64,000 nucleotides of DNA from Tubiluchus corallicola (lineage: Eukaryota > Priapulida > Priapulimorpha > Priapulimorphida > Tubiluchidae). Numbering within the stretch: position 1 is the stretch's first letter; each line of letters starts with the position of its first letter. Made by a program: the position numbers and the translations under genes. A model generated the notes under the pieces. The model had not been told where the DNA came from, searched no databases, and saw nothing but the letters and a program-made list of their open reading frames with translations. This document shows positions 1-56,510 of this stretch, piece by piece. The DNA is taken from assembly GCA_030141605.1 (NCBI GenBank), contig JAQGDQ010000251.1, positions 210,486 to 274,485 on the forward strand. Direction: 5' to 3'.

Positions 1-400
1 ATCAATGCAGAATGTGTAATTGTACTGACCACAAGAAGAAGTCATTATGTTTTCTGACCGGTTAATAGCCGATGCCAGTATTCCACTACGTCTGCATAGA
101 TACTGACTTTCTTTCTGTGAAAAAAATTGTTTCCACTGTACTTGTAGAATTGTGCAAATCTCCTTGGATAGGTATAGGAAATGTATTTCTCCTGTATCTT
201 TTTGCTAACTATGTTAATGCATCTTTCTACATTCTGTCTTATCTAATATTCTAGTTATGTGTACCGCAGACTCCTGGGTAATGTGGTTTGAAAAATTTAA
301 TCAACAATGTCGAAACATTTAGTGGTAATAGAAACTAAACAAGTTTTGCCATTCAGTATTCATTACTGTTTGACTTCTGCACTAAATGATTGTTCTTCAG

Positions 401-3400
401 CGCCCGAATCACCGCCGGATGTAACAATCACAGAAAGAACTGCTACATCAATGACTGTGTATTTACCACCAGCGTTTTCATCGAAGGGACCAATATCGTA
501 TGTAACAACACTGTTGTTTTATAAATTTAGAACATACATAAAAATGTGATAATTGTGGAATACATCTAAAATGTCTACAAAATGTGTCTCCTTGTATTAC
601 TTTTACAAATAGACTCTTTTAAACAAACTATAATTGTAAATTTTGGATGTCATGGAATTTTTATTCACAATGATTTGCTATTTATAGCTACATCATACAA
701 ATATCCAAAGTATCTATAACCTCTTGTTAAGAAATTATCAGTCTTAATAATGTGTTTACTCTTAGTGGTTTTTATTTCAGTGGCTATCATGTAGTACCAT
801 TTGACCTCTCTTCGCCAGTGAAATTTGATCCAGAGAATCTTGTAGGACATGAGGGTGCTCAAGCTCTCGGCTTGCCGTATTATTTAACAGCAAACTTGAC
901 TCACAGAAAAGCGCAAAGCTTGCATCGTTACTTCACTGTTGGCGATCATAACAATTATGGTGGATATTTTAATGCACCTTTGAACAAAGATAAGAAATAC
1001 ACTGTTATCTTCGGAGTTGTTAGCAGCTTAGATGGGGTAAGGAAATCCGCGAATTTTCAGTTTTCGTATAAGTCATTCAGATGAAGATAAAACGAGAATT
1101 TGATCATGAATGAATGATTATGAAGGTTCATTTAGCTTTAAGATTGTGTATGTTAATCTTGTGAAAAGTTTTGCTTTTTTGGCCTTTTAATAATTACTCA
1201 TTAAATAAATTGGAAGGCCAGTTTTTAAACCTATTTAAACCTAAACTTTTTAAAAGTGATTAGCCTATTTTTATCTGTTTTTAGGATATACAACATTACA
1301 AAAAACAGATTAAAATATTTAAAATTAACTAACTCTTTAGTTATCTGACACAATCTTAGTTTGCACATCTATTGCATACAAGGTAGTACCTGTTTTAGCT
1401 GTTTTTACAATATTTTTGTAGTTGTTTTTCCTTTACAGATTACAAAGTTAGCATATTCTAAATTTAGAACTTTTGTTGGGTCAGAAAATGACGATGGAAT
1501 AAATGTTTTTGAAAGTAAGTAGTAATGTTGCATAGTGATGAGCAATTAATAGATTAATCGAATTAATCCCGATTGCAACCATACTTAAATCGGTATGATC
1601 AGCGATTGAATTGTAATTCAATTAATCAAGAGTAAAATATACGCGTTACACACTGACTAAAAGGCAGTGTTTTAGCACAAATAAACGGAATCTCTGCGTT
1701 TTTTCTTTATTTTTCTCACCTTACATAATGCTTGCCATTGCAAACCACAGTATTACAAAGTGGGTGCTTCAAATTGTTCGTTGGCATGTGACATGTGTAG
1801 TGACGTAGTCTGAAAGTCTCAATATAAATAGTTTGCAAATAAAATAGCAGACAGGGACAAAAGCTGTGAAGAAAAAATTGCCGCAAAAGATTAATTGTGA
1901 TCTCGAATTACAAGAACAAGATTATAATCGAATTACAAAATTTCAAAATTGTTCATCACTAATTATTGCATAAGTGGGCCAAAGCTTTTAAATTGTTCTG
2001 TTATCAGCATTATGGTCACTTAGAGGAAGATTTGCAAAAAAAAATAAAGGAATCTGCATGAAATTGAATCTGTATGAAAAAAGAATGAAGCTTATAATGA
2101 AAAAACAGTTTTACATCTGATGTGTGTGTTGTAATAGGAAGTTAGATTTACTTTTTCAGTAAAAAGAGAAATCCGAAAGTATTATTTCTGAATGTTATAT
2201 TTAATTTTGTTAAAAAGAACTATGTATAGCTGTCCTTATTGAACGTTTTGGCTTTTTGCAACTTCTAATATTTTTTATTGCACCGGATATAGTAATTTAA
2301 AACAGACATCATAAAACTACATAAGTTAGTCTACAATAGTTTAACAAGTATATTAGTCTAAAATAGTTTAACAAGTATATAAACATTAAAAGCGAATTTT
2401 TAACTCTAACTGGCAAGAATAACACGCCTTGAATTAATTAGCTACGTACCTACTGGCATAGAGAGATAGTATTTGCTGTACGTGTCAAGAGATGTTATCT
2501 ACCAGCTTTTGGGTTTCAAAGCTTACATGTATAGGTTTGTTTTGGATTAAAACACTGGTTGGAGCAGATATTATGGTGGAACCCATGAATTGCATATCTT
2601 GTCATGGCATGTCGGTTCTGCCTCTTGGGTTTTTTCATTCATTATGAGTCATTGCTGGTGTATTATAGACTACCAGTTTTCTTTGAATATACCTTATCTT
2701 TGACCTTTTCTAAACATTTGTAGAATTTTTGAGTCTGGGGTACTTTGAAGTATATATAAATTTCAATGCTAAGTCTATCTGCATTACACAGCAAGAATTT
2801 TCGCATTTAAACTTCTTTGGTATTAAACATTTGTGATGTTTTTATTTTATTTAGATGTTGGAATTGCCAATAAGAAATTTGGAAGTGCAAGTGGTGCTTC
2901 AGAAGAACTCGATGCTTCTCAAAGACGACGAGCAAAAATTCTGGGTTCTGTGATAGGGCTGCTGCTGTTTGCTCTTCTGGCAGTTATCATCGTTTACCTC
3001 TTTTTACGATTTTATTGGTTCAAGAAAAAGCGTCGCAGTAGGATCGAACGGCAAGGGTTAACGAATCTTGCAGCACCAGAACTCCCTCCTCGGGTAAGCT
3101 GTTGTTTTCATATAATATGGCGATATCTTGGAAGAGGATGCATTTTGGTAGTGGCAGTTGTTTCTGTTCGTGTCAGGCAAAGCTGTGTTCACACATATAC
3201 TGTCAAATCATGTTAGAACACTACTAAATATGGCATTGTAGCGGAATTGGAGGTAGGGCGTTCATGAAATGTCAAAGCCGTTCTACTGTGTAACATCGAT
3301 TTTGTTTCCTAGTTAATTTTAATATGTGATAAATAGGTGTAGTATATAGCATTATTGTACCTATGTCAATACAACTGTTATACTGCACATTTTGCTGCAT

Positions 3401-6400
3401 TAACACTGCAGGTATAGTTCTACGCTGGTACCTTGCAAAACTTTTACATAATGCAAGGTAGAGGAGCAATCTTGTGAAATACTGGCAATTATTCAACTGT
3501 TGATAAGAAAAATATACAGCCACGCGGTCCACACTCCCAACATAACATTATTGGGCACCGCCGCACATAAGTTAATCTTGTGTCGAACCAGTACAGCTTT
3601 AACGGCCTTTAAATTGTACTGAATCGTAGCTATGCAGTTCTTGTACTAATGCATGCTTCTTGCTCAAAACCTGAACATTCACTTTCATAGAGTCACTTGA
3701 TGCGAAACCTAAATCTTAATTTAAACAACTTTTGATGTTCAGAGATTGTTGTTTTTACAATAGAATGGCTGTTTTTCTACAGCAATTCATTGTGCTCTAT
3801 CTTCATTGATATTATAACAGGGTAAGTTTATTATGTAAAATGGAGTTTTGACACAGCTGATATATTGGTGGATGGCAGTAAGTGAGGTTGGCATTACTTC
3901 TTATATTGTTTAAATTATTGCTGGTTTAAGTGGCTGTACATCTAGCTTAACTAACAATTTTAGTATCTCAGAGACTATCTAATAATGATGACTTCAGCCA
4001 CTATTGACGTTCATTCATTATTGTTTCACTTTTTTTCTTTTGGTCATGTTTGTTGTTAAAATAATTGTGGGTTTATTCCATAATTAAGGTTTGACGATTA
4101 TACAATAAATAATCATTTTGAAATTGAGATTTGTAATAATTAATGGATTGCTTGCGGTCTCTTCTAGCCTCTAAATGTAATTATTGTTGGTTAAACTATT
4201 TTTGACGGCTCTGCTTAGTGAGCTGTTATGATTGATTTAATACTTGCCATAAATAGAAAGGGGCATGCAGCTAGTGATTCTGGTATTCAAATTGCAATCC
4301 AAAGGTCCTTGTTCAAATCCAAACACAGTACCAACCTTTTTTCGCATTTCTTTTTTTGATTAAGTTGGGTTTCAAAATTCATTAAATATGTTTATTCTAT
4401 AGTTAGCCAATAATCTTCAAATCAAGATATAAGTAATTAACTAACTAGTTATGCAATTGTTTAAAATTATTTGGTAATCAATTGGGTACCACATGGTTTC
4501 TATAGAATGAGAATGGTATTTACATCAACGAAGAGTACGTTGATGACAATGGTGAAGTTGACATCAACATTCAACTTTCTGCGTTAAAAGACAAATGCTG
4601 GAAGATTCCGAATGAAAACATGCGATTTGCAAGCAGTGGGGAAGTGCTGGGTGTCGGACGCTTTGGTGATGTTCTCAAAGCAAAAATTGTAACATCGGAT
4701 AGGGGCAAAACAGCAGCACTCGTTCCTTACAGAGGTAAATACAGAGAAAATTTGTGGTGATTTTGATTTTTTTTAGAAATTTTTGAGGGTCATTAAATTT
4801 CAGCAGACTGTCTTCATAAAGAATAATATCTTTATGAAAAATAGCACAATAAAGAAATTATTTTTTTATTAATTGACGTTATTGACAGGTATTATTCCCG
4901 TTGTTAACACTTAGGTGCTATGCATTAGTGACCTTGTGCATGGTGTGAAATCTCAAAACGAAATTTTTTTCTCGAAATGAAGAATGAAAAATTGTTTTTG
5001 AACATTTAAACATTAGTAGTAATTGTCTTAACCTATTACGTCAGCAACTCTTTCTCATCTAAAAGGCTGGATTAGAACCTTCTGGGGTTTCTAGGCTAAT
5101 GAAATTATGATGCCCCTTCAGACAAAGTCAAGGGCCCTTTATCTTAAATAAGTTGCCACTTTTTTTAAATTGTGTTTTTAGACTCTCGGGCCGCCTTTTT
5201 AAAACTTGAAATTTTATTTTAAGTTAAGTGAGTCATTCAGCAATGCAAAATAGTAAAATATTATACTCATTTTTCAGAAAAAATCTTTTTAAAAATCTTT
5301 TAGCAGGGCCCCTCGAAGTTGGGGGGCCCTAGGCTGCAGCCTGTAATTGATTGAAAATTAGTAGCTTAAAAATGTCATGTCCTGAGACTGTTACTTATCA
5401 TACTGAAATATAATTCAGCAGTGTCAAAGTAGCAATCCCATTGTGTCAAAAACTGATTTTTACATTGCAACATTGCAACGATCACATACGCTACACGGTC
5501 ATAAAAATTTTTAACCAAGACCAAGGCAGGCAAATTATTAATTACAAATTGCATCATTTTTTACAGATTTAAATTCTAACCGATAAATTAATCATTAATA
5601 ATTTTTTCAGAAGAAAGAGGTGAAGATTTAAAGAGAGAGTTTGTTGCAGAACTTGATAAAATGATTAGACTGGGGAAGCAGCCTAATGCAGTGTCACTTA
5701 TTGGAATCTCAGAAAGAGAAGGTACAGCATCTCCTTGTACAACTTAATTCATGTGCATAAAATTGGTGACTCTTTTGCATTACGTATAGTCGTGATGATG
5801 ATGATGATTATTACTTCATTTAAAAATATACAGTTTGCAAAGACAAATGGATGTTAATAAAATAAATATTGGGAAGTTAGTAAATAACTTATTTACAATA
5901 ATTCAACTTTGTAATGCCCACTCATTTCTGTACTACTGTAATTGTATTTCAATATATGGTCTTGTAAGAATCTATACCTGGTATCTTAAAACACAATCTT
6001 TAAATGAGTTCTTTACCTTTAACTTTACATTTTCGTTTAGATTTACAGTACAGCCAGTATTTTAATCTTAAATTTACTTGACTGTCATTTACATAGCAGC
6101 CTAGCTTTGGAATTGGTCAACGTTCTAGACTTCGCAATTTTTGTCAAAAATTTTTTTACATCTATCTATTAACTAATTCCCATTTGTGTCCTAAAGATAT
6201 ATTAACAATTTGACCCTATCATTTTGTCTAAAATCGAATATTTTTCTATAAGCAGTGTTTGGTATACTGCCAATTTTGCATCCATATAACAGAATTGGTA
6301 GACAATATGTATTGATATGTATTGATTAGAGTCTTAATTTTTTTTTTGTGATCTGTCATAAATCACATAATTTATTCAGTTACATGATGACTATCACAGC

Positions 6401-9400
6401 AAATTAGATGGATGTTTTACTCAAGTAGTATCTAATCAGTTGACTGGTTGTTTTAGTTAAATTGGATATGAAATCTTGTGTGCGTATATTACAGGTTCTA
6501 TCCATGCTGCCATCGAGCATGTTTCTGGTCCAAATCTCAGAGATGCATTGAGAGCCAGCAGAACAAACACTAAGTCTGGTGGTCGGGTGTCACAGTTCAA
6601 CGAAGAGCAGTTATTCAAACTTGCTGTGGGAATTGCCCATGGCATGCAGTGCCTGTCTCAAAACAGAGTATGAATATTGTCTAGATATTACAGTAATATT
6701 AAAAATTTAAGTGTCATTAACTAGGCTGCACAATTGTCTTAATAGAGAAATAGGTGTAAAAGAACACCAAACTCTAACATTTTGATACATTTGTTCAAGT
6801 GTAATAGTGTTGTTATTTGAGATTTTTTAAATTTTGCGTCCATAGTTACTGAGAATTAATGTGATTCAATGTTGACAGTATGACAAATTGTCTATGTTTT
6901 TGATGTAGGGTTTTATTTCATTTATCATCAATTTGTTACTGTGCTAGAACAGACACAGCAAGACACATCAGAAATTTCAGAATTGTCTACTATTGGTAAG
7001 TATATTGTAAAGAGTCAGTTGCATCTGCATTGAGAGTATTAGTGCAGCATATATGTCTGTATTAAATGCTCACATATATAGTACATGGAAACAGATTTCT
7101 TCTCTTATCAGTTGTATAATTATTGTGGCATACATCAAGGTGTTCATTCCTACATTTATAATTATTATAAACACTTGTTATAAAAGCCGGCACTATCAGT
7201 TTTACGTGAGAGTGGATTCAAAATCCAGGTTTTTATATTTTAACATGATATATTAACAGGAAATTGTTTACCATATATACGTGTGTACAAGTCGACCTTA
7301 TGTACAAGCCAACCATAAAATATTAAGATCTAACAGATTAAATGATGTCAACAATGGCCGAGTAATAAATCAATAGCCTACTGTGTTAGTGTGTAAGGTA
7401 TGTGCAAGTGCCTGGGCCGAGTATATTATACCTACCTATGTGTGTATATATGTATATGTATATTCATGTTGAGGGCCCTCAATGCAATCCATGATAATGC
7501 AGCCTGGCCTTTTATCGCGCATAATTGTTTGTAATGCCTTTAACTCTAGGATATCGCGGCCAGGATATAAGGAAGGATTATTTCTTTACATATTCGTATT
7601 GTAGACAGTTTAGCGACATCTCCCAAAAACATATCGTAAGTATAAGTTGACCCCAAAAATTTCACCTTAAAATCGCTTCCCAAAAATTCGACATGTACAT
7701 AAGTATATACGGTAATTAAAGTATTTTGTGGTATTTTATGCTGTTGTCACTAAGCATTGTAAAATGGTTGAGGACATTTTTGCAAGAACGGAAAGTGGCT
7801 CTAAACAGCTTTAGAAATTCTGTGATTCGTAGACTTGAATTTAAATAGATTTTAATCTATGTTTATTTGATGTTAGTTTATGCATTGGCAGATGACATTA
7901 ATCTTACCAAAATCTTCACTTCTGATGTGTCTTGCTGTGTCATGGTTCAACTCAATTCAGCATATTAATATCGCAAACTGAATCTTAGATAATTTCAGGT
8001 CTCTTATGAAAGCATTAACATGCGAAATGTGTTAGATCATCAAGTAAATGTTTTGAATGGACTCCTTGTTATTAAAAGTTGTTCATAAATTTTTCTTTGC
8101 AATTTCAGATCATACACAAGCAGTTAGCTGCTAAAGTTATTGTGTTAGTAGATGGTAGTATACCCAAGATTACTCAGTTTAGCCTTTCTAAATATAGCAA
8201 TGAACGACAGGTAACTGTAAATATCACACAGCTGTACTTATATACAACTAACAATTGTATTTAAATGCTATTTACTTGAAAGGATATAGTCAAATCCTGG
8301 TAATACGATTTTCAAGAGACTAAAATATTTTTTCATAATAATGGAAGACAGGATGATTTTTCCTATACTGCCCCATTTTCAAGTTTGATAAAAAGTATAC
8401 ATTTTAACACAATTAATATTGCAAAAGTGTTTCTGATAATTAAATAATATATTAAAAACTTAATTAATGGCAGGTGATCCCAACTATTGATGACATCACA
8501 AACGAACATAATTTTCAACTGCAGAAATATTCCACGAGCGTCTTGCACGTGTTTGCAAAAGCGAAAATTGAAGTACTGTGCTACTATAAGATATTCAGTG
8601 TGTTATTCTGAAACTAGGCATGTTTTAAGATAAAAATTCAAATTTCAAATACCGCTGTGCTCACACTTGAGCTGTCAAACGTGTGTAGTTCGTCAGAAAC
8701 TAACACAGCTGAACTGAGAGGTACAGTACCTGTTCTTTTATAATGCCTTTCCGAAATGCAGGTGCTAGTGCCCGTCTAACTAGCGAATGGCAAAATGCAT
8801 GTAACAGCGAAGAACTAGTGCGGCGAATGCGAAATTGTATTTGTGTGGTAATAATTCTTTCACGTAAGTCATTTTTGAAAAAATAGTGTGTTCCCTTTCA
8901 ATATTTTAAAAAGTAGATTGTTTTGACCTATAGTTTAATATTGGGTCCGGTTTTGCTTTAAGCGTGTTTAGTAATATCCATTTCGCACATTGATCTTAAC
9001 TCCTAATATGTTATTTCTAATGTAAAATAGCAATTAACTGATGCTTATAGTCTTTACTTTGGTTTTCTTTTAATCGGTGAACATAATTTAAGCTTGTTTA
9101 GCCTTCAGTTTCCCATAAGTACAAACTACAAAGAACAGTTGCCAGTCAGTCTAGAAGCAAGAGGGTGCCAGAGAGTCTGTCGTTTTTTGCTGCTTTGGCA
9201 TCATAACTCGATAACTGTAAACAGACAGCAGTAACAAATATAAGTAACATATAGCAGGCAAATTTTTATTAGAATAGGTAGCGGAAGTCTTTTTGGAAAT
9301 CACTAATTTAGCTGTGTGCATTTAAACCTATGCAGCTACTGATTTAATCAACAGTAGGCCTAGCTGTGATGCTGTACGTACATGCATTATGTCATGATCG

Positions 9401-11906
9401 CATGATGAGTTGTAAGAAATCAGTTATTAAGCTATGGGTACTGTTGGCAACAAGTGAAGAGTACCTAGACGGGGCGAGTCTTTGAGAAATCAATGTATAA
9501 AATGGGCGTTTCGTGATAAATAGTTTCATATTAACCATAAATGATTACGTAGGTTTTATTATAATTTTGGCAGGAACATAATAAAATCATCGTACAACTG
9601 AGAGTTTCGTTATAAGCTGAATCGTATTTTCGGGATTCAACTGTACTTAGTTAATATCAAATAATATTATGTTGTGTTTTTTAGAAAAATGCTAAGAGCA
9701 TACTTGACTTTCCTGGCATTATTTATTAGGCAGAATTACAATGCCTAAACTTATTTCAGCCATTGATATCAGTTGCATTACTTAATGAAAGGGGAAATTA
9801 CAGTGTCTTTTTGACATAGCGTAATCGTATGTTTCAGATGGGAAGTTTTATGAGATGGCAATCTGTGGAAAGTCTTCGGCCTAAAATTTACACTTCCATG
9901 AGTGATGTTTGGTCATTTGGTGTAGTGTTGTGGGAAATAATGTCATTAGGTTAGTTAAAAAAACATCATGACTAATTATGGTACAGCAGTGTCATAAGTC
10001 CAGCTTTGATTCTAAATACATGAAATTTTTTTTAAAATTTGGTCTTATTACACAGGATATGCCATGTTATCTGTGTGTGTTTTTGCACCAGCACATCAGC
10101 TTGTCGAAATAAACTTTTAATTGTTTTTTTAGACTGATTCCCCTGTAAGTTATGAGTTATCCTATGGGTATAAGCCAACCTCAGTACTTGGTTTTGAAGC
10201 CAAAGTTGTTTAAACGCAAACCATTTTTAAGAAATTGTGGCTGTAATTATACAGAAGTATAATGTTTTGTTGTTAATTCCTAATTATACATCTATCATTT
10301 AAACACTCTTTTTTCGTTTGTTTAGTTTTTCATTACAAAATTCTATGTATCGTAACACTTTGTAGGAGGCACGCCTTATACAGAAACAAGGAGTCAGGAT
10401 TTGGATGAAAAATTGTCAAAAAATACCAGGTTGCCTCGACCTTATGGCTGCTCTGATGATTTGTAAGTACAGTTGTTACTCTCTTATCTCTTTACAATGA
10501 TACAACAGTAAAGTAACCGAACATTTGTAAATTTATATAAAGATACTTTATAAGAGTAAACAACCCTGTTGTAGTTTTACTTCTTACTGCTTTTAGTTTC
10601 TTTCTGATTAAGGCAACCGTGGCCACGCCCTGTTTTGTATCACACCTTTAGAGTAAAACCTTCAAAGTGTTTCGAAAGTAGCATTTTTCTTATCAGTTGG
10701 AGCGTGATATTATATTTCTTATATTATATAGTACTTAATATAAGCATAAAACATTGGCAAATTTTCCTACTGAGTATGAAAAAGTTTATGGTATGATTAT
10801 ATTCATTATCGTGCCCTACCGTATGATTATATTCATTGTTGTGGCCTACCATATTATATTCATTATCATGGCCTACCAATAGCATGACAATTTTTTATAG
10901 CTTTACAATAAAAGTACAGTAATGCAAAAGCATGAATATTGCATTTATACTGAAATTAAAAGTAATTCATTATTCCTAGCATTATTATTGTAAAAAAACA
11001 TTTTACTTCTAGTTCATTTTATATTAACTGTGCATTTTCAAATTTATGTATAAATAAATAAAGAATATAATTATTGATCAGAGCTTGTTAACTAGTTATG
11101 ATATTCATCAAGCTGTCACTGTTTTGCGTACGGCATTATTTTTAGTTGAATGTTGGTAATGATGGTCAAACAAATTTTGTGAGTTTATCACTGAACTGTA
11201 CTAAGCGACAAAAAGACAAAAATGTCAGACTGACCTAATTAGTTCCCAAAAAAATTCTGGTCATTTCCCAAAATTTAATACAGAACCTTTATCGTCGGAC
11301 TACTTCTTTCATTTCAAATATCATCTAACCTTATTAATGTAGTGGTTTTATGTTAACCATGTATATGTCCAGATGTAATGCTGTATTGTACTTTGTGGTG
11401 TAGTCATTCCCTTTATTATTCTATTGTCAGCTGTATAGGCATTGTGTCAAATGTTGTAAACACCTATGTAAAATAAATTTTACTTACTTTGATTGTAGGT
11501 ATCAAATAATGCTTCAATGTTGGGAACTGGATCCAGACAATCGACCGGATTTTGCTGAACTTTATGGAGTTTTACAGACTATGGGCTCTGAAAAAGTGAG
11601 TTACTGATTGCCACTTGTTCATGACTAGATGCTTATTGTAATTTTTATTTAACTGATGCCTTATAAATCCCATCTGTATAAATCTAGTTATGTCTGTTCC
11701 TAATGAATTGCTGACATATCAATGACATTCGTTTCCCATTGTAGTAAGTTAATAAAACTTGATGTGCTCAGTGATTTATCACACGTTTCTTTGCATTGGC
11801 TATAATTTTTTTAATGTTATTTTATGAATTTCAGAATCACTTGACACTAAATTGGCATCAGAAGTTTTACTATCAACCTATTGATGGGACAAAAGATAAC
11901 AACTAA
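401..11906 (+). CDS. Receptor tyrosine kinase-like pseudokinase with FN3 domain (5' partial, 12 exons)
   Basis: Exons read by splice consensus and frame: 401-497, 781-1036, 1439-1514, 2855-3093, 4506-4734, 5611-5721, 6495-6667, 8109-8210, 9838-9949, 10366-10462, 11499-11595, 11835-11906 (stop TAA). All phases join to give 552 residues; the start lies upstream of the window. Residues 1 to about 130 form a fibronectin-III module of the receptor phosphatase/kinase type ([17 protein letters not shown]). A transmembrane helix follows at about 171-198, then a basic stop-transfer KKKRR. The kinase fold starts with a good glycine loop GVGRFG (271-276) and an alpha-C glutamate (EFVAEL). The VAIK lysine appears replaced by Val (AALV), HRDLAARN reads HKQLAAKV (396-403), DFG reads QFS (416-418) and APE reads SVE. 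Structural motifs [11 protein letters not shown] and the CW-x6-RP helix ([10 protein letters not shown]) are kept. I infer a membrane signalling protein without phosphotransfer, comparable to RYK or PTK7-type pseudokinases; orthology is not established. Confidence 0.88.
1532..1961. mobile_element. hAT-like MITE, copy 1 (degenerate), in pseudokinase intron
   Basis: The element begins with AGTGATGAGCAATT and ends with the near-complement AATTGTTCATCACT, so it has short terminal inverted repeats of hAT type. Its interior matches 17460-17963 in inverted orientation (shared ACACACTGACTAAA and CAGTGTTTTAG blocks). The flanks (aatgttgc, aattattgc) are similar but not a clean 8-bp duplication. No transposase reading frame is present. 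Confidence 0.6.
4253..4346 (+). repeat. tRNA-like sequence (possible tRNA-Cys-derived relic)
   Basis: A B-box-like stretch TTGTTCAAATCC follows an AGCTAGTGATTCTGG segment and a TGCA that would sit at a Cys anticodon. The acceptor stem does not pair well, so this is at best a SINE or pseudogene relic inside an intron. Confidence 0.25.
5065..5348. mobile_element. Dispersed GGCTGGATTA/GGGCCC repeat, copy 1
   Basis: One end carries GGCTGGATTAGAACC and TTTCTAGGCTAATGAAA; the other carries GGGCCCCTCGAAG and GGCCCTAGGCTGCAGCC. The same pieces occur in inverted order at about 25870-26225. This is the pattern of a small non-autonomous DNA transposon; boundaries are approximate. Confidence 0.5.
7267..7716. 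mobile_element. MITE with ~33-bp terminal inverted repeats
   Basis: The left end TTTACCATATATACGTGTG, continuing into TACAAGTCGACCTT, is the inverted complement of the right end (7682-7715, TACATAAGTATATACGGTAA preceded by AAAATTCGACATG). There is no coding capacity. It lies in the intron before the exon with the degenerate catalytic loop. Confidence 0.65.
10784..10880. repeat. Short tandem repeat, about 3 copies of a ~33-38-bp unit
   Basis: TATGATTATATTCATT followed by TCGTGCCCTACC or a close variant recurs three times in an intron. Copies differ by a few substitutions and small deletions. Confidence 0.7.
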
Positions 11907-13264
11907 CCAACAAAGTTGCCTAAAAGTTAACATTTGCCATTATTAGCATTCCCCAATATTGTACAATTATTCTTTGTTAATTTTTTAAAGTAGTGTGTTT
12001 TTGCCAAGGCAAAACGTCCATTTGTTTCTCTCAATTGTGATTTCTTCTTTACAGAGCACAGTCAAACCTCATTATAACGCTCCTCCTTTATAATGCTAGC
12101 CTCGCTGAATGCCTTAATTTTTAACAAAACAAAATGTCTATATTTACATAGACATATGTATTAATGTGCCTCGTTATAATGCCGAACTCGTTACAATGCT
12201 AACTTTTTTTGTAGTCCCAAAGTAGGCAGTATAAAGAGGTTTGACTGTATGCACATTTGAAAATGGATACATGTATTTCTACTTTCTAATAATCTAATTT
12301 TCGATATTTTGCTTTAGTGTTTTTAAACACTTATGTATTTTAATTCCATTTTGTGCAATGAGACAAATGTTTTGCATGTTCTAAGACTTGTTTGTTAGGA
12401 AACATATTACGTTGTTATTTGTCAATTGTTTAAAATACATGGCAATTACACTTTCAACTGCATTCCTTTCATATTGCTCAATAATATTGATATTACAATT
12501 ACTAAAAGTTTATAGTGTGTGGCTTTTAATTAAATATATGCTATTTTGGTATTCGTGTCTTGCACTGATCATTCCTACTTTTCACATTAATTGTACTAAT
12601 TATGATGTACTTTGTAGTAATGTTTGTGTTATAGTTATGGGTATATCACTTTTAACTAAAAATTAAATTACTCAGGGTTTTTTGATGGGTTTAGAATCTC
12701 TCTTATATCGATCTGTCATTTTTGTACACTTATTTCATGTTGCTCTTTATTGCATCATCATTACCTGAAATTATTAATTTATTTGGGGTTTCCATTTATT
12801 AATGCTTTATTTTTTAATATTATTTGTTTCACAAGGATTAAATGGTTGTAACAGTTTTAGTATGACATTATATTGTCGTACTCTGTTGTAATAATGTGTT
12901 CTAGTATGTAATATTCTAGTACAAATGTGCTGTAGTGTAGACGAGTATTTTTATGTGAATCATGAAAATGGAATATTTAAATATTTAATTGTTTATTTTA
13001 TACTAGGTAGCTGGTATACTAGGTAGTTGATGCATTAAAGACACTCATGTTTTAATGATGGAACGTTCGTGTTCCTCTTTACTGGCAGCTATTTTTTATT
13101 TTTATAGGCACTTTGGCTAATAACTTTGTCGTATTTTGTTAAAAATTTCGTATTAAAACTTGTTCACGTAATAGTATTTAAACATCTTATGAATTCAACT
13201 TCTGAATTAAAATTAATAAAGTTTATGTAAAGTGAGGATTCACTTTTGCAGTAGCTTGAATAAA
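11907..13264 (+). other. Probable 3' UTR of the pseudokinase gene
   Basis: About 1.35 kb of AT-rich sequence follows the stop codon and contains no convincing coding exon. Candidate AATAAA signals lie at 13215-13220 and 13259-13264. A pogo-like MITE (12059-12247) is embedded. The exact transcript end cannot be seen from sequence alone. Confidence 0.4.
12059..12247. mobile_element. 189-bp pogo/Tc1-like MITE in 3' UTR
   Basis: It starts CAGTCAAACCTCATTATAAC and ends with TATAAAGAGGTTTGACTG, nearly perfect inverted repeats. The CAGT...ACTG ends and the TTATAACG motif are typical of pogo/Tigger-type elements. An internal TCGTTATAATGC block repeats the subterminal motif. The TA target duplication is only half preserved (ca on the left, ta on the right). 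Confidence 0.7.
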
Positions 13265-14780
13265 CTGTGTAAGTAACCAAAATGAAATTGTTTGTGTATT
13301 GTTTATGCTTTTTATGTGTGAGGTCACTGAGGTGGCTTTAAGATAATTGAGGCAGTAGCTGTAGTTACTGCTATTAGTGAACTGTGTGATTAGCAGTAAA
13401 GAAAATTCTGTCTAAACTCGTAATACGTAATTATCGGGGATATGCTGCAAAAATCATTATTATGATATTACATGGCTTGGCAGACGTCGTGCCTTGTAAA
13501 ATGCTCATGTTAGTGTGTATTTCGTATTACTGAACAGTACCGAGCATTGCAGGCTTGGCAAAATGGGTAAACTCTCCTTGTGTAGCAGAGTTACCTGCTT
13601 TGCTTTGCTGTCATTCCCGTAGCCCTTTGATAGGCGCTTATTAATCGAAAATATTGAATTTGAAAATGGATGCCTATTGTAGACATTGGGCAGGCAGAAT
13701 TCTAAAATAAAAGAAATCTGCCTTAGTCAGGTAAACGCAGCAGTAATCCAGCAACAAACTAGACACTGCTACGCCTGGTGGCTGGATAACTATAGTACCG
13801 TTACAAAGAGTGGGAATCGAATTGAATTGAGGTTCAACAGTAGCTGTAAAAATTACGCAAAGTAATACTAGGCGGCACCACTATTGCCACGTGAATTAGT
13901 GCTGCACGTGATATAGCCAGAGAGGCAGATTACTAACTTGATTATTATTTCTTAATTGTAAGTTACTTCTTTATTTTTTGCTTATTTGTAACACGAATTC
14001 GACGACGACGGAGATAGTTTAGCTATTTTCGTTGTTTCCGCGGTCTTTAGTTTGTCATTAAAGTTATAATCAGCATATTTTGTAGGTAATCATTTTATCA
14101 GATTTAGCCTTTTTTAGGTATTGGAATTTGGATTGTTACTACAAGTCCAACTTAACGACCGGTGTTTGAGTTTGAATGTATTTATTTTGCATAACATTAG
14201 CTTGCGTTGTAATCGTAGCAGCATAATTGTCAGGTCAATATTCAAATTCAAACCTGGTGCTTAAGTCGGCTTCTTACTTTTTGCTTTTTTTAAAGCGCAG
14301 CTCGACATACTGCAATCCGTAATCCAGCACTTAGTCTGGTTCAACTTATTTTTGAAACACATTCTAGCATGCTTCGAGCTAGAGTCCACTACTTATGGGT
14401 TGTACCAACTACCAAGTAAACGTTGAATAATTGCGACAAAAACAGACCTAGCTCATTCACAAAGTTAATTCTGTAACCTCAAACTATGAATTAATATCAG
14501 TGTCTTAGACATGGTTGGATGTGTATTACATGTACATCTGGCTCAACAACGTAAGCAGTTTGATAGATGAAACACCTAGAAGTAGTTGCTTGCATACCCA
14601 GCCATTCATTCACTAGATCTAGTGCTATTTAACTTTAGTGGCCAAACACATTCACTGACTAGTTAATGAAGTGAATCCATTTTTCATTTTAAATTTAACT
14701 TCCTGTTTCCTGGTATCGATGTCTCCATTTTACTTTCCTATATAACATTCATATTAAAATTGTTGTTTTGTTATTTTTCT
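13265..14780. other. Intergenic region and probable CTH 5' region
   Basis: No coding exon was found. A small CG-containing patch (13996-14045, CGACGACGACGGAGATAG and CCGCGG) stands out against the AT-rich background and could mark the promoter or a non-coding first exon of the downstream gene. That is inference only. Confidence 0.25.
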
Positions 14781-14787
14781 AGTTACA
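14771..14787 (+). promoter_or_regulatory. Splice acceptor immediately upstream of the CTH start codon
   Basis: TTATTTTTCTAG ends at 14782, five bases before the ATG at 14788, which sits in a good context (ACAATGG). This implies either a spliced 5' UTR or spliced-leader trans-splicing. Confidence 0.55.
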
Positions 14788-17700
14788 ATGGCAGAGTTTA
14801 CACCTTTTCCACACTTTGCAACTGATGCTATTCATGCCGGCCAAGAACCAGAACAATGGATGTCTCATGCCGTTGTGCCGCCGATATCGATGGCCACGAC
14901 ATTTAAGCAGTACGCTCCCGGAGAACATAGAGTAGGTTTCATAAGTGTGTCTGTTTGAGACTTATTTAAAAATCTTGTCTTCAGTAACTTTATTATAAAT
15001 ATTAGCTGTGCAAAGTTTAATTACCCCACACCCTTGGGTAGTTTAAAATTCAAATCATATGAGTCTTAATTTTAACCAAAGGTAATATTCAAATTTTAAC
15101 ATTTCAGGACTAGCATTCTAGAATTTGGGCTTTGTGTGCACATTTGAAATAATAATAGGTTGGCTGTTCATGTCTGGCTTTAGGCTACTAATGGCCAGTA
15201 CCTTGTAAAACAAACACTCATATTTGCTTTTACATTTTTGAATACCAAGAAATAGTCAAATTCATTGCTAGTCCTGTATGCTCTCTTCTCAATGGACATC
15301 AACTGCTGGATATTGATGTTCTTCGTCCCCCCCCCCATGCAACGAGTGGTGTAGGGCAGGGTAGTGGTTGAATTCATGATGACAACATTTCAAGCTATAT
15401 AGTATATCAAGTCACAAGGATTAAAACTAAAATGACAGATTTTAGGTGATAGAATCATCTAAACTACCTTCATTTGGTGTTTGTGTGAGTCGCAAACGGA
15501 ACTGCTAGTTATTTAACAGGTTTTATTAAAATATTAATTGGCAACAGCAATATATAAAGCTATCCAAAAGTGCATCATTATGACAATCTTGAATCAAACC
15601 ATAATTTTAAGTAATAAAATTAAGAACATGCAGGCCTTGGCAAAAGTGTCAGTGATTGTTTGGTAAATTGATGCACCCTAATGATTTATGACTGCAGTGA
15701 CATGGGGTCGATTCTCTTTTGTGTAGGGATACGAGTATGGTCGAAGTGGTAACCCAACAAGAGATGTTGTAGAGAAATGCATTGCCTCTCTTGAAAAAGG
15801 GAAGTTTTGTAAGTTTACAACAACAAAATTTTTGCATTACATTTTTTAATCGGAAGTTTGTGGTGTGCTGGTATTGGAGTGTACTGATATATGGGTGTTT
15901 TAGTGTAAAATTTATGCTCTTATTAAACATAAAATAAAAGTCTCAGTTCTTGAAATTTTGCTGGAAAATGCCTGGAATTATGGGAAATGATTTTTTTCCT
16001 TTTTTAGAGAGTAACCTTTTGTTACATTTATTATATAATTAATTGACTAGCTTGTTTGTTATTATTTTTGTGATTGTATGTTTTTAAGGTATGGTGTTTG
16101 CTTCTGGATTATCAGCGACAGCAACAATCACGCATTTACTAAATGGTGGTGATCATATTGTCTCTGTGCAAGATGTTTACGGAGGTAATGACTAATCTGG
16201 CTTACTTAAAGTATTGTTGCTGTGTTTACGTTTTAGCAGATTTTTGGCAATGCAACATTATTGTTGTAATGTGAGGTGCGTTGTTCAGTGGTTTTAGACA
16301 CCACGCGTGGTGATCGGAGTTCAGAATGACAGTGGCAGTGACGTAATAAGTGCTTGTTTTGCCCGGGAGCAAAAAAGCTTTTTAGAGGCTACTCTTTCAA
16401 CGTTTTCTCATTTGTTTCGTGCGTGAAGCTGCAAATTACGTGCGATTTTCGCATCCTTGAGCCCCACTTTCCTTTTTCAACATGATGAGATAAAGATAAA
16501 CAAATTTTTTCTAAGAATCACCCAGAGTTTGATGTGCAGTACTGTGCCAGAATAACTTTTCTATGCATTTGTTGCTCATAACTCAACAGTCCTTAAACAT
16601 TCAGCTCCAGCATTAAAACATTGGCATTTGGAGAATAGTGCCACAGTTTCTCCTAAAATTATCGGTCTGCTAAGGCACGTACCACTGTACACACACTGCT
16701 AAATATTAGCATTAGCTTTTTATGGTAGTAATTAAGTGTGATGACCTCGGATTTTGCTGCAGTTCGGAAATTTTTGTTAATTGTTATTGCCGGAATAGTA
16801 ATGAATAATTTTCATCCATTAAATAAACTCTAGAAGAATTTTGCAGATGATTGCCTCCTGTCACCCCCCTCCCCTGCTGCCCCTCTGGACACTGACACTA
16901 GTGAGTGAACGTGCTCGAGGCAGTTTCATCCTTCATGCTGATTCCTGCTGTTTGCCTTGTAGAGGAAAACTGTACCATACACATTTAAACGTGACTATGA
17001 CACCTCTGCTGGTTCAGTGCTTCGATAATAAATTGGATTTCAGTTTCACCATCTTCTTAGGATGTGCTCTGTCATAGTATGCTATGTTCTGACCTGCAGT
17101 GTTCCAAATTGTTTAAGTTTATGCTGCTGATTTAAATTTCTATTTTAGCAAATGTACAAAGTAACTGTTAGGTTTTCTTGGATACCGTGACTGATCTGTT
17201 TAAAAAATGTACGCATGATAAATAGTACGACAGGAAAACATTTTTTAGCAAAGTTGGCCCCAGATTGATCCCATGTGCTCTGGTCTACATTATTTAAAAA
17301 ATAATTGGTAAATAGTAATCTAATAATAGTATTATAATATATGATATTGATTTTTTGTCTCAGAATATCATAATATTTTGAATTGATTTTTTTATATCAT
17401 AATATTTGGTATTGATTGTTTTGTATCATAATATTTGGTACTGATTTTTGTGGGTGACTATAGTGATGGGCAATTTTTAAATTTTTTGATTCCTTTACAA
17501 TCTTGTTCTTGTAATTCAATATCACAATTAATCTTTTATGGTAATTTTTTAGTGTTTTAGCCATATTTTTCAAACATTGTAGCACTGAAATATAGCCTAT
17601 AAACTTCTTCATGGTTTTCGTCGTTCTCTGTCATTTTCATACTCGCAAACTATTTTGATAGACACATACATTCATTAACTACTTTATTACTATGTCAACT

Positions 17701-20700
17701 GCACACATCATGTGAAAGAGAATAAGAAGCCCCAGTTTGCATCACTACGGTTTGCAACTGTGTGCATTTTGTAAGGTCAGAAAAATGAAGAATTCTGTTT
17801 ATTTGTACTAAAACACTGCTTTGTTTAGTCAGTGTGTAACACCTATGTTTTGCTCTCGATTAATCTTGATTAACTGAATTACTGTTCAATAGCCGGTTAC
17901 ATATCAATTTATACGTGGTTGTAATCTCGATTAATTAAATTAATCTATAAATTGCCCATCACTGGGTGACTTCTACTGTCATTTCAAGCATTTAAAATCA
18001 AGTCTATATAGCTGTTGCATTTACACAGTGCATGTACAGGCAACCACACACTGGCCTTGAAATATAGTTTTATGCTTCGTTTTTATCTTGTCATTTTCTG
18101 TTCTACTTGCTGAAAGACATTTTGTGTTGCAATATTTGAACATCATAAATGCAAATATAGTAACCAAAGAATGCAGCAGTGGATTATGGCTAGGCAGACA
18201 GGCACCAAATAGTGTGTTGCATGAAATCAGTAGGGCAGACATAGTAGCTGCAACTTCTGTTAGTACTTTATAGAATGCCAGTACAACAAAAAGAAATTTC
18301 ACGCTTTCAACTAAGGCAAAAATTTATAATTAAAACACTTCTTATCAAATGAATAGTAAAATGAATCGTAGCTAAATGGGGAGTCGCTAAGTGAGAGCTG
18401 ACTGTGCATTATGTGCTGGTCAGCTACTGGTGCAAATTGGTTACTTTTAGACTATGGGCATCTATAAGAAAATTCCTCAGTATCTGGCATCGTTCATAAT
18501 AGAATACTGCAAAAATGTGTAAAGAGTCCAAAAGCAAATGTCTAAATTATTGATACTTAGTTTAATATTTTAAACAGGCCTGAAATCCGAGTTAATCATT
18601 GATTTCTGATCGGTGATGTATTATCGATAAAAGTACCAAAAATTCCCAGTTAACTTGAATTGGACTAATTTTAACTGATTGGATAATTTTACTTTGAACA
18701 ACAGTGAATTCTTAAATGGCATATCAACAAGTGATGAATATCCGTAATTTATCAAGAAAACACATCTCAAAAGCTTAGGATAGGATAGGATTTCTTATAT
18801 TTTGCAAACAACCGAAAAACTGGCTTGTGTAATAGCAGATTTATTTGCTTTGTAAATGACCGGGTTTATAACAAACTAATGTTGTATATTAGTAATACTG
18901 GCATGCAGTATACATGCCAGGGTTACTAATATACAGTAATACAATCCTAAATAAATTCTTTACATCTGATTTTCTGGCTTGCAAATTTCACAATTATGTT
19001 GTCAATTATATGAAGTCATTTAGATATTCATTTTCAATAGATTTTATGTTAATCAAGGTGCTTTTGTTGACAAGATGACCTCATATAGCTTTTAATTAGT
19101 CTAAGACTCTAACTTAGAAAATGATCTTTCTCTTCATTTAAAATCATTTAAGAAAAAACTATGGCATGTCGTAGGTTTTGCATCTGTTCCCTCACCCAGA
19201 AACATTTGTCATTTTTGTACTTTATTCATAACAATTCTGTACCTTTGAAAGCAAAATAAAAACCACTAATTTTTATTCTGTAGCAAACACTTGGCTGTTT
19301 AATCGTTGATACAGTTGACAAAATCGGGAACTGTCGGGGCCTCTGACGCTTGGAGGTCCTCCTGCACCACCGACAGAGCCGCCGTGGTAGTTGTGGCTCT
19401 GAGCGCAGAGTATTTATAACCAGGTTGGAATCATAGAAAATGGCCAGCTCTGATTAATTCAATTGGTGATTACAAGCTTATGCAATGTAAGATGACTGCA
19501 ACAGCCGTAATTTATTATGATGTGTCTTACAGGAACTAACCGATATTTTTCACAAGTTGCCTCGGCTTTCCACGTTGGAGTTACTTATGTTGATGCGGCT
19601 ACAGACGTTAAACACATCACCGATGCCATAACAGACAAAACTAGGGTGAGTTAGTAAAAGCTAAACTTTCTTTGATATGAGATATTTATGTTTATTGATT
19701 TGCTATTTGCTTTGCTTCTTGAGATTACTGTTTTTGTTTCTGTCTTAAATTCATTCAATAGATGAATTTATTCATCCAGTGAATACAATAATAGTATAAA
19801 TTTATTATTACCCAAATGCTAACTTTGTATTTAAATTCTTCATGTGATTACTATTTGTAACTTTACTTCTCTGTTATTTAAATTTGTGATGAGAGTTCGC
19901 AAAACTATTTTTGCCTCTACAGTATAAAATAACATGACAAATTAATTTTAATGTTGTATTATTTTTGTATAATAGCCAGTAATCACCCAAAAGTTTTCCT
20001 GCGCCTGTAAGTAAGCCTTTACTTTTAATAAGAGGCAGCTGATTAAGTGACGAACAGGCCTTTCACTGCTCTTTCTCAGTTATATTTAAATTTTTATGTA
20101 ATCATATTCTTTTTAAACAAAAAAAGTTGGGTTGAAAAAATAAAGCTGAGTTGAATTGAATTGCATTGTTCATTTTAATGAGAAGTTACTTGCTTACTTG
20201 TATAACATTGTTAATGAGCTAAAATTGTTTTCAGAATTTGCTTGTTATGAAAATAGTTTGTGCCATGTTCCCATATAGTGAAATAGCAAATCAGTCTAGT
20301 TTTATAGTGTAGGAAGGAGAATAGCTGCATGGTCAATATATGGGCATGGTAACTAAAGTTAATTATTGCTGAGATTAGTCAGGAGCAGGATGGGTGACTG
20401 CCAGAAAATTTTTTTTGTTGGTTTCATTTGCCATACTGACTCTTGTTATTAACCTCGTTAAGTTAGGATGTGTACACAGCCTAGATGGCAAAGGTGCTTC
20501 TGCTGATTAAGTTCCACTTTTCAGATGATTATTCTTGATAAGGCGCTAACTTCTGGTACTGCCACAAACAGCTACACTAAGTATATTCTGCCTTTGGGTG
20601 CTTCATTTCTGGTTGTAGTGTGACAAATTGCTTAAAAACAATGTACAAACGGATATCGCAGAAAAGAAGTCTTCAAATATTCTTCGGATAAAAACAAACT

Positions 20701-23700
20701 CTTTTTCATAATCTGCATTGAAGCATCGTATTATTTCAAGTTTTTCTTTTCAAAAGGCAGAACAATAAGCCTTTTCACAGTTCCAGCAATTGATGATGAT
20801 CATGAAAAGGTCCAAGGTTAAGTGAACCAGACAATGCATTTGTGTACACTTGACAATGCCTTGCAGCCCTTGCTATTGTAATAGTAACAATTTTAACAGC
20901 TAGCTAGAACATTACCTAGTTAATTTTTCTTGTTCCCAAGCAAGATACTGCTAGTAAAATACTCTACATTGCCCAGATTAATGCACAATTAAGTAAAGTC
21001 TGCGTAAAACAACTGAAGTTATTGAACTGATGTGACAGACGACTTTGATTTGCCTACATGTCACATGACTTTTGTAGTTAAGACATGTTTCTTGGGTTCA
21101 CTAAACCTTTGACCTACAGCAACTGTGCATGCACATAGCAAAACTGTGAAAAGGCTTATTACTTTCGTTTGAGCAACCAAATGAGCTTTTAAGTGTATTT
21201 AGTGTGATAGATTGTGAAGTGTCCACATGAATGCATACTCTAACTTTTCTTGGTTGTTACTTAGATGGTGTGGATAGAGACTCCGACAAATCCTACCTTA
21301 TGCTTGGTGGACATTAAGGCCGTTGCAGCTGAAGTCAAGAAACATAAGAACATATTTATGGTAGTTGACAACACGTTTATGACGCCTTATTTTCAGCGAC
21401 CGCTGGAGCTGGGTGCTGACGTTGTGCTTCATTCTTTGACTAAATATATGAATGGTATGAATTATGATTTACTGTTAACTGAGTTACCCTTTAATGCTGA
21501 AAGCATAAGTTATTTAACTTTTCTGTGAAACTGAACATTTTTAATGGGTTTCTTTACACTTTGAATTGCTCATGTTGTTGAGCACAATTGTGCAAATATA
21601 AATTTTACTGGTGGCTGGGAATAGCTGAAAAGATATTGAAAAAAACACAGGTATTTAACACTGTGATAGCATCTTTAGTGTAAAACATCCATGGTTTTCA
21701 ATGAAACAAGGTGACATTAAAATAAATTTTAGATACTTCAACACATAACCCATTGTATTAATGAATGTTTTCTCAGACGTTCGTAAACTTCAATGCTATA
21801 CACATGTTTCTTCTTTTTGTAAGTTTGCATTCAGTTATTTACATTAATATGTGAAGTTATCAAACACGTGTATTTCAAGTTTGACTGTCAAAAGATTGCT
21901 TTTGTAGTTGCTTGTGTTTTTGTTGCACAATTCTAATTCACATTTTCTTACATCTTTATGTATGTTGATGCTGTGCATTTTTTATCAGCATTTCAGCATA
22001 TTTTTTCCAGTATGTTGAATGGACATGTATCGAAGTTGCTAAGATTACGTCTGTTGCCATTTTGATTCTAAACATTATTTGATTATTTGTAGGTCATAGT
22101 GACTCTATTATGGGGGCTTTAGTTACAAACAGTGATGCTATAGAGGATAAACTAAGATTCTTACAAAATGGTAAGTTATGTGTAATTATATTTTCTTTGT
22201 GATTTTGTAAGTTGTTGTGTAGTAATTTGTATATTCTCCTTGTAAACTATGATGCACTTGCAGGTTGAATCCTTTTTATGTTACAGCAATTGGTGCGATT
22301 CCAAGTCCGTTCGATTGCTACTTGGTTAACCGAGGCCTGAAAACGCTGCATCTGCGCATGCAGTGCCATATGAAAAACGGTTTGGCCGTTGCTAGATATT
22401 TGGAAAAAGATCCCCGGGTACTGAAGGTCATCCATCCAGGTAGGTTTGGAAGATATTAGACTTCGTTAGCTCAAAGATGAGTGATGAGTTACCAAACAAT
22501 TTTGCAAAGATTACTTTGTTTAATAATTGACCGATTAGATGATTGTATTGGATTAAAGTGGTAGATTGCTAACAGTAAAAGAATTGCTATTCGTAAATCT
22601 CAGCATTAAGCCAAGTAGTCATCAGCAGTTATCATGCTTTACCGAGTTTCGAGGCTTAACTGGACACTCCACGTGGTGCCCACAATAGCAAAGATGATAG
22701 TTGGTTATTCCACCAGTGAAATTAGTTTTTCTCCTGTGTTGTGTAAGAATTTATGATTTTTTTATGGTATTATTTAAATTTTATGTCGAATGACTTGCAC
22801 AAGATACCTGTTGGTGATCGGTTAACTTCTAAATACAGTCACAAAATCAAAGCTCTACAATTACCGAATGAGAAACTATAAATTTTAAACCTTCCAAACT
22901 CACTTTATGTTTATAATGACACTCTTTTAATAAAACTTGTAATCAGCACTTACTGAGGCAATTATGGTCTGCGTCATTAACTCTATAATGCTGAATTATC
23001 AGAGGGCAGTATTGTTTTACGTTGGTTTATGACTCATTTTCATAAACAGTTGAGAATTAATTTAATTTTAACTTTCAGGGCTCGAGTCACATCCTCAGTA
23101 TCAATTGGCTAAGACTCAGTGCCGTGGATATTCTGGAATGTGCTCGTTTTATGTAAAAGGTGGCCTGAAAGAAGCTACAACTTTTCTAAGTTCTTTGAAG
23201 GTACGTAATTGCATATGATTGCTTTGGAGAAGTGCAACCATACCATTTTCTCATTTTGCTGCTGTTTATTTTCAGAAGCTGTTAAATTAGTTTTTGTTAC
23301 GGACTTGCAAATGTATAATATATGGAACATTTGTGTTATACATACGTAATGGAGATGACTATATGTCTGCCAGAAAATGGTCCAAAACTGGCGCATAAAT
23401 AATACCTGTGCAGTATACGTTCTTTGGGTCATAAGTTTTTAGAATACAACGAAAAAGTCTGTTTGTGCGTAACGTTATTGAAATCTTTCTTATCCTGATT
23501 TCTAGCTAATTTTTCTACTATGCAAAGTTGCTTATGCAAGTTAAGAGTTCAATGACTTTATATGTTTTCCCCAGAAACGCATTTATGATTTATTTATGCC
23601 AATGACTAATAAAAGTTGTATTGTCAGACAGATGGTATTAACAAAATAAAGGTAACTAGGCTGTCAGGCTTGCTGCTGAGTTTGTTCCCAGAGTCCTTTA

Positions 23701-53200: not shown

Positions 53201-54030
53201 TTGTAAAATAAAATATGATATAAAGATGTAAGTGAAGGGAAATAGATAGAAAACTGGCAAAAGAATGGCACAAAATGAATAAGATGTACACTTTAAACTA
53301 TTTTTACAAGACCACATATTTCGCAATTAAGTAAAAACCACATTTTTTGATGCTGTTTAAAGGGACTGATTAACTGTTATATGACTAGGGAGGTTGTTCC
53401 ACAACTTGACCCCATTATGTTGAAAACTGTTGAATCCATGCTGGGTATTAAAGCGAGGCTGAAGGAAATAAAAATGTGTAATAAAAATGAATGTTGTATA
53501 TTTTTAAAAATTGTTTTTATATAGACTAGGCATATATAGACTAGTTTATATATTTAACATATCATTGTTAAATTTGAACATGAACATGAACATGAACAGG
53601 TATTCGAAATTTATCTGTACCATACTAGAATGAGAGTTGGTTTTTGTCAAATTAATTATGATTTGTACCCCAGAAAATGTAAAAATTACGACAGGTCGCT
53701 GGTATCATCTAATTGTCAATGTGGTTCTGCTCATGAAACAGTGGGCCATTACTTAATTAACTGCCCTCTTTACCACCAGGTCAGACACGATTTATTTACA
53801 AATCTCTGCACTCTTTTGTCAGCTTTTAACATCAATGTTTACAGTCTTGCAACAAATGAACTTGTACGTTTGTTCCTGCATGGGAACCATACCCTAGATA
53901 ATTTTGTGATAATCAAGAAGGACATTAAAACAAAGACACACCAGTGTTTTGTTCTCTACAATGAACACGCAGTAGTATCTGAGACAAACTATGTCCTACA
54001 TGTCAATACAAAGTTAAAAGTGCCTATTTA
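50225..54030 (+). pseudogene. Non-LTR retrotransposon (CR1/L2-like), broken, interrupted
   Basis: Endonuclease end: CYRSPTQDAP and IYIGDFNAKCAVWY (the GDFN catalytic motif). Linker frame 51025-51594 (LRKAKEKSHKYCKLHQT ... KAWWNSVNSFYKSK). RT: ITNYRTISLLSCVSKILE, FLDVSKAFDKM, and the catalytic FADD at 52051-52062, running into 52072-52443. The tail at 53630-54031 reads CQCGSAHETVGHYLINCPLY. At least six stops or frameshifts show it is dead. Between about 52450 and 53590 the ORF is replaced by unrelated AT-rich DNA. Family placement (CR1/L2 versus RTE) is inference. Confidence 0.85.
52960..53165. repeat. Tandem duplication, ~103-bp unit x2
   Basis: TTTTTTAAGTTGAGTGAATT through GAAACACGCG occurs twice in a row with few differences, inside the insert that interrupts the LINE. 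Confidence 0.9.
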
Positions 54031-54193
54031 GAAAATAGTGTGATTAAGTTGGTTTGGTTTCAACGAATTAAAGAGAAGCTGGCATGTTGGAAAAGCAGTT
54101 TTCCGAAATTCGCCTAAATGTACTAAAACTTATGAATATAAGAAACTACTTTGTAATATGCGTCTTTAGTGGCGTAATAAGGTCTAAATCGGT

Positions 54194-54467
54194 AGAAATA
54201 GAGAATCTTGAGTACTCTAGAAATAGAGAATCTTGGGTACTCTAGAAATAGAGAATCTTGGGTACTCTAGAAATAGAGAATCTTGGGTACTCTAGAAATA
54301 GAGAATCTTGTGTACTCTAGAAATAGAGAATCTTGGGTACTCTAGAAATAGAGAACCTTGGGTACTCTAGAAATAGAGAATCTTGGGTACTCTAGAAATA
54401 GAGAATCTTGGGTACTCTAGAAATAGAGAATCTTGGGTACTCTAGAAATAGAGAATCTTGGGTACTC
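54194..54467. repeat. 25-bp-unit minisatellite, 11 copies
   Basis: Unit AGAAATAGAGAATCTTGGGT followed by ACTCT, nearly invariant; single-base variants at units 1, 5 and 7. Confidence 0.98.
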
Positions 54468-54499
54468 GGCCAAGCCAAATCTGCAAGTTGGAATAGGTT

Positions 54500-55590: not shown

Positions 55591-55784
55591 TTTTTTAATT
55601 ATATTGTATTTTTATAATCCAGCAATTTCTTGCAATTTAGTCTAATTAATGCCAACTCTTATTAATTCGATGACTAACGAAGTTTATTTATAACTAGATA
55701 TTGTGTTTAGTAAGATTTAGAACTGCAAAATTAACTATGACAAAATAGACATAATAATTATCAAAAATTATTATTGATATGGAA

Positions 55785-56280: not shown

Positions 56281-56510
56281 AGTTTATGCGATTAAGTGAA
56301 GTCGAGTTTTTGTGCATGGCTGAATGTAAGTTATCACTGACACAGTCAAAAACGCCATCTAGTCTATACCTTATACTGGTCTTGCAGTAGTTATTATTAA
56401 TATTTTCTGAACAGTTTATTGCACAAGCCCCACTTTGCATAGTAAACAATCTTGTTCAGATACATAACTGAATCCTATTGATTTGCCCTAGGTTTCACTT
56501 ATTTAAGATT
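56275..56510. repeat. Duplicated ~220-bp block (partner 56745-56965)
   Basis: Both contain GACACAGTCAAAAAC, CATCTAGTCTATACC, TACTGGTCTTGCAGTAGTTA and CATAACTGAATC. No coding sense seen. Confidence 0.8.

Follow-up and report, generated by a model that had tools for sequence, protein, structure and literature searches.

A probable Wsck-type receptor pseudokinase gene in the priapulid Tubiluchus corallicola

A receptor tyrosine kinase-like gene of Tubiluchus corallicola, located at the start of a stretch of 64,000 nucleotides (the window; contig C1934, positions 210486 to 274485), most probably encodes a retained, catalytically dead receptor of the same kind as Drosophila Wsck. We assign this reading a probability of roughly 85%. 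A Wsck-type dead receptor kinase is already on record in the fruit fly, and the present gene is a further example; a striking catalytic loss met in raw sequence may belong to a family that has been recorded before. Dead receptor kinases under constraint reveal roles of the kinase fold that do without catalysis. Moreover, with a second Wsck-type gene that is complete and has traceable introns, two questions on the origin of this receptor become testable: is the dead state ancestral, and was the stalk derived from a receptor phosphatase?

For the gene model, 17 exons and 16 GT-AG introns form a single frame of 767 amino acids that ends in TAA. All exons are on the + strand, and 12 of them lie within the window (401-497 to 11835-11906). 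The other five, exons 1-5, extend the gene to about 4.4 kb upstream of the window (window coordinates -4390 to -537). Exon 1 (-4390 to -4345) encodes the signal peptide (residues 1-15) and is an ab initio pick among three candidates, of which two share one exon and differ only in the ATG. Exons 2 and 3 (-2922 to -2745 and -2095 to -1992) encode a WSC domain (residues 20-96; Pfam 2e-14), exons 4 and 5 (-1164 to -1058 and -744 to -537) an FN3 domain (residues 113-203; Pfam fn3 5e-16), and exons 6 and 7 (401-497 and 781-1036) a membrane-proximal FN3 of the type found in receptor tyrosine phosphatases (RPTPs) (residues 227-336; Pfam Fn3_PTPRU 1.3e-13). Exon 8 (1439-1514) holds the end of this FN3 and a linker, and is bounded by AG/GT with compatible phases. 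Exon 9 (2855-3093) encodes the transmembrane (TM) helix and a basic stop-transfer stretch. The helix spans about residues 386-408, where the 19-residue hydropathy reaches 3.17, the maximum of the protein.

The remaining exons encode the cytoplasmic part, with the tyrosine-kinase fold at residues 482-734 (Pfam PK_Tyr_Ser-Thr 8.6e-56). Exon 10 (4506-4734) contains the juxtamembrane region, the glycine loop GVGRFGDV and a beta3 strand AALV that lacks the Lys. The alpha-C helix with its Glu retained is in exon 11 (5611-5721), and the alpha-D/E region is in exon 12 (6495-6667), in which LSQNR is the end of alpha-E. Exon 13 (8109-8210) carries the altered catalytic loop HKQLAAKV and QFS in place of DFG, and exon 14 (9838-9949) carries a short activation loop, SVESL, and DVWSFGV. 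The alpha-G region (exon 15, 10366-10462) is followed by alpha-H/I (exon 16, 11499-11595), which is entered in phase 2, with the phase 2 intron preceding YQIML. Exon 17 (11835-11906) encodes the C-tail, which was aligned with that of Tie2, and the stop codon. The initial annotation had described twelve open exons with clean splicing at 4506-11906. The number is correct for the window as a whole, in one frame; that span, however, includes only the last eight exons, which encode the juxtamembrane and kinase regions and hence only the cytoplasmic part.

Several other features were observed around the gene. By eye, exon-sized frames resembling cystathionine gamma-lyase are present at window positions 14758-22456 (+), and frames resembling fragments of LINE reverse transcriptase/endonuclease are present on both strands at 50305-58020. 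Upstream of the window, frames resembling an RFX-type transcription factor (contig positions about 170600-198500, - strand; by eye) are arranged head to head with the kinase-like gene. The Rfam scan of the window returned no matches.

For this single-pass protein, the order of the encoded domains is signal peptide, WSC, FN3, RPTP-type FN3, TM, and tyrosine-kinase fold. WSC, fn3, and Fn3_PTPRU are the only ectodomain families over the Pfam cut-off, with no Ig and no EGF, and matches to the whole protein include neither Ig nor WIF, the hallmark of RYK. The PTK7 ectodomain carries Ig repeats, and that of Tie carries Ig and EGF domains. The initial annotation was thus right that the architecture, without WIF and without Ig in the Pfam scan, is that of neither RYK nor PTK7. 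It was also right in placing an RPTP-like FN3 next to a TM helix, given the Fn3_PTPRU match and the helix in exon 9. When contig names of the kinase matches listed were compared with those of 85 WSC matches from the 343.5-Mb assembly (2344 contigs), the window gene was the only one among the matches listed to pair both domains closely. Four contigs (C1831, C2110, C1901, and C32) have both WSC and kinase matches among those listed, located far apart. Identical-score WSC matches were seen on C354 and C2254, and at 342883-351547 and 377837-386546 of C2160; such pairs are of the kind that an inverted repeat, or contigs representing duplicates or haplotypes, would give.

For the catalytic residues, the predicted protein was aligned with six catalytically intact tyrosine kinases, i.e., Tie2 and EGFR from PDB and four from the same genome. 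The VAIK Lys is replaced by Val, HRD by HKQ, the catalytic-loop Asn by Val, and DFG by QFS. The glycine loop (GxGxFGxV), alpha-C Glu, and DVWSFGV are retained, as the initial annotation had stated. Among the 41 columns that are invariant in the six intact kinases, 30 are the same in the window protein and 11 are changed. The changed columns include the beta3 Lys (V), HRD Arg and Asp (K and Q), catalytic-loop Arg and Asn (K and V), and DFG Asp and Gly (Q and S), as well as a missing Pro that precedes the RW motif. The conserved columns include the glycine loop, the alpha-C Glu, three positions of DVWSFG (Asp, Ser, and Gly), and RPxF of the C-lobe. The losses are concentrated in catalytic columns (six of seven, compared with five of 34 other columns; Fisher p 0.0006), the seven being a set from general knowledge that was named after inspection of the alignment. 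The initial annotation had counted all main motifs as replaced, and this stands for the Lys, HRD Asp, Asn, and DFG Asp. It does not stand for the change of APE to SVE. Tie2 has AIE, EGFR has ALE, and the kinase on C419 of the same genome has PLE at this position, such that three of the six intact kinases lack the Pro and the change is not diagnostic of catalytic loss.

The initial annotation had also named an alternative exon with a normal catalytic loop as a finding that would count against a dead kinase. A tblastn search of window positions 1-13000 with seven probes returned only the known exons and chance-level pieces, and no in-frame HRDL/DFG signature occurs in the window, L009, or L010; no such exon was found by either approach. 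These patterns suggest that the kinase fold is catalytically dead, with no phosphotransfer expected from the sequence. Some kinases that miss a canonical residue are active, and residual activity through other residues, as in such unusual kinases, would agree with the retained glycine loop and alpha-C Glu. However, the protein simultaneously lacks the Lys that anchors ATP, both metal-binding residues (Asp and Asn), and the catalytic Asp, and its activation loop is short compared with that of Tie2. Residual activity is therefore considered highly improbable.

A dead kinase domain may be a retained one or a sign of a gene that is being lost. A recently dead pseudogene, or a weakly constrained gene on its way out, would account for the loss of five catalytic residues, the long branch of the gene in the kinase tree, and the last exon, which has a codon score like that of non-coding sequence (72 bases, -6.1). 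Nevertheless, the 17 exons contain no stop and no broken splice site. The coding score is positive in the other 11 window exons, and in all 12 the frame used outscores both other frames under a codon model for which five long open frames from this genome served as the training set.

In addition, a neutral frame would be disrupted well before it reached the amount of change that the catalytic losses require. The five catalytic codons are at least 10 of 15 nucleotides away from any codon of the ancestral residues. Neutral evolution was simulated for the 552-codon part in the window, with no insertions or deletions, the inclusion of which would only sharpen the result. The proportion of stop-free frames was 35% at distance 0.01, 0.5% at 0.05, and zero among 2000 at 0.10 and above. 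By comparison, none of 20000 runs at distances up to 0.20 altered 10 or more of the 15 catalytic nucleotides, and the proportion of runs that did so was 0.1% at 0.30, 1.6% at 0.50, and 24% at 1.00. Neutral frames thus gain stops far before such codon change, and long neutral decay does not fit. The open frame, despite at least 10 nucleotides of catalytic change, indicates that constraint on the protein outlasted or accompanied the catalytic loss. The terminal branch of the kinase part is 2.87, compared with a tree median of 0.97, such that relaxed constraint is compatible with the data, as is decay that set in very recently, given a single sequence. Taken together, the open frame, codon scores, and simulation uphold the initial view of a selected pseudokinase as opposed to a decaying gene. 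We consider it highly probable that the gene is a retained pseudokinase, and very unlikely that it is a pseudogene or a gene being lost.

For the kinship with known receptors, a table of 18 Drosophila kinase-like non-kinases includes WSCK_DROME (P83097, 809 aa), with TM at 12-34, WSC at 42-115, fn3 at 129-233, TM at 422-444, and a kinase-like domain at 511-768 (PMC2754085). The motifs listed there for the fly protein are HRQ, VFG, and APE, and the subfamily given as nearest to its kinase part is Eph (PMC2754085). WSC, fn3, TM, and kinase-like domain follow one another in the window protein as they do in these tabulated data. The spacing is also similar, with 67 residues from TM end to kinase start in the fly and about 74 in the window protein, and 293 and about 277 residues, respectively, from fn3 start to TM start, the TM helix of the window protein being taken here as about residues 390-408. 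In both proteins, the HRD Asp is replaced by Gln (HRQ in the fly, HKQ here) and the DFG Asp is lost (VFG and QFS, respectively). There are differences as well. According to the table, fly Wsck keeps APE and the DFG Gly, whereas the window protein has SVE and QFS. The window protein has a second FN3, whereas none is listed for the fly protein in PMC2754085. The nearest kinase kin is Eph for the fly protein in that source and Tie for the window protein in a small tree. Based on the published layout, the spacing, and the shared Asp to Gln change, the gene very likely belongs to the Wsck kind.

This kinship bears on the proposal in the initial annotation of a lineage-specific decoy receptor. The genome does lack a close paralogue, including the active one that had been suggested as a search target. 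A search with the kinase part returned the exons of the gene itself and other matches of no more than 51% over short pieces. However, the same layout with a missing HRD Asp is tabulated for Drosophila (PMC2754085), and with this matching order and spacing in the fly the term lineage-specific fails. Furthermore, the cytoplasmic domain retains its fold and tyrosines, which argues against a mere decoy. The proposal is accordingly regarded as highly unlikely. In searches for relatives elsewhere, none of 16 pattern matches in GTDB contigs was confirmed. One of four pattern matches in viral contigs (L047) is phage-like by its frames and was taken as spurious.

The FN3 stalk resembles those of receptor phosphatases in sequence as well as in gene structure. 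Among PDB entries, RPTP-mu matches the FN3 pair best (8a16; 3.3e-17). Fn3_PTPRU occurs at three places in the genome, i.e., the window gene, an RPTP gene that has PTP exons as well as FN3 repeats (C1820:597337-608499, +; L048-L049), and a LAR-like RPTP frame on C1923. The last of these (C1923:537456-543216, -; L051-L052) is a single, intronless open frame of 1920 aa for a receptor tyrosine phosphatase of the LAR type. At all five exon borders compared in the FN3 pair, the window gene and the RPTP gene on C1820 agree in aligned codon and in phase (1, 0, 1, 2, 0), and 69 of 219 aligned residues are identical. Receptor tyrosine phosphatases have a PTP domain after the TM helix, whereas the window protein has none; PTP is absent from the Pfam matches of the whole protein.

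These likenesses in sequence and intron positions, together with a joint between the TM and kinase exons that is predicted, are what a misjoining of two genes would produce, i.e., an RPTP-like gene up to the TM helix and a separate kinase gene. However, the phases fit across the joint, and no PTP signature (HCxAG or WPDxGxP) is present in the window, L009, or L010, which cover the window and 20 kb upstream. The order of FN3, TM, and kinase-like domain is also found in fly Wsck as tabulated (PMC2754085). Misjoining is therefore extremely improbable.

For the kinase part, Tie2 chains lead the single-domain PDB matches (201 bits), followed by RET (158) and FGFR2 (154). The top row is an EGFR tandem with 225 bits, which sums two 111-bit matches. 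The kinase part groups with Tie1/Tie2 (95/90) on a long branch in a tree of 22 rows, 11 of which are human domains entered from general knowledge, Tie1 included. A tree that joins the window kinase and the C1737 receptor as sisters is not rejected (p-AU 0.161), and Tie2 has a higher identity to the C419 kinase of the same genome (44.7%) than to the window protein (39.9%). The tails of the window protein and Tie2 are similar (KFYYQPID and KFTYAGID, respectively), a score reached by 37 of 20000 shuffles. Nevertheless, the catalytic residues that were compared are intact in Tie2 and not in the window protein, and the ectodomain is not that of a Tie receptor, as the Pfam scan returned neither Ig nor EGF. 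In a genome search with Tie2, long matches were at about 25-42% and shorter pieces at up to 73%, with no Tie orthologue standing out. By eye, the C2137 kinase is a better PTK7 candidate than the window gene. ErbB3, PTK7, RYK, and EphB6 are single-pass receptors with a kinase fold that lacks working catalytic residues; their ectodomains differ from that of the window protein. ERBB3, EphB6, EphA10, and STYK1 are among those named as pseudokinases in PMC9171411.

The function of the protein may be that of a scaffold or co-receptor that is phosphorylated by other kinases, a mode that we judge to have about an even chance. The WSC domain, described as a likely carbohydrate binder (PMC2754085), would bind a glycan or glycoprotein outside the cell, and the kinase fold could serve as a docking platform paired with an active kinase. 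The tyrosines present include those of YINE and EEYVDD in the juxtamembrane region and KFYYQPID in the tail. YINE conforms to pYxN, the motif bound by Grb2-type SH2 domains, and the tyrosine in the tail (KFYYQPID) occupies the place of a docking tyrosine in Tie2. The juxtamembrane and tail tyrosines would be phosphorylated in trans and not by the protein's own activity, and may then recruit adaptors.

A more speculative scenario concerns the origin of these receptors. Wsck-type receptors may be an old fusion of an exon-shuffled RPTP stalk and a Tie-like kinase, with introns that still show it. The kinase would have died early, with the HRD Asp to Gln change fixed before the split between insects and this lineage, and the receptor would act through its stalk as a non-catalytic bridge between RPTPs and RTKs. 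This scenario is considered unlikely. If true, the bridge would link two opposing enzyme classes. Literature searches, in which the name Wsck was not a query, listed no paper that describes Wsck as having shared introns or a stalk of the RPTP type.

Other kinase-like sequences with altered motifs were also noticed in the genome. Long, uninterrupted open frames on C1849 (L006 1396-3132, -; 578 aa read), C1602 (L007), and C1328 (L008) make up a small family. In these frames, a tyrosine-kinase-like domain comes after about four hydrophobic spans. In this family, the kinase-like domain has CRD, Ser for the catalytic-loop Asn, and KFG for DFG, and the family appears to be a second group of pseudo tyrosine kinases with an odd multi-span front. 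Finally, a kinase-like sequence at C147:127550-127990 (-; L024) has HGKLRACN and SDYALD where HRDLAARN and SDFGLS are expected.
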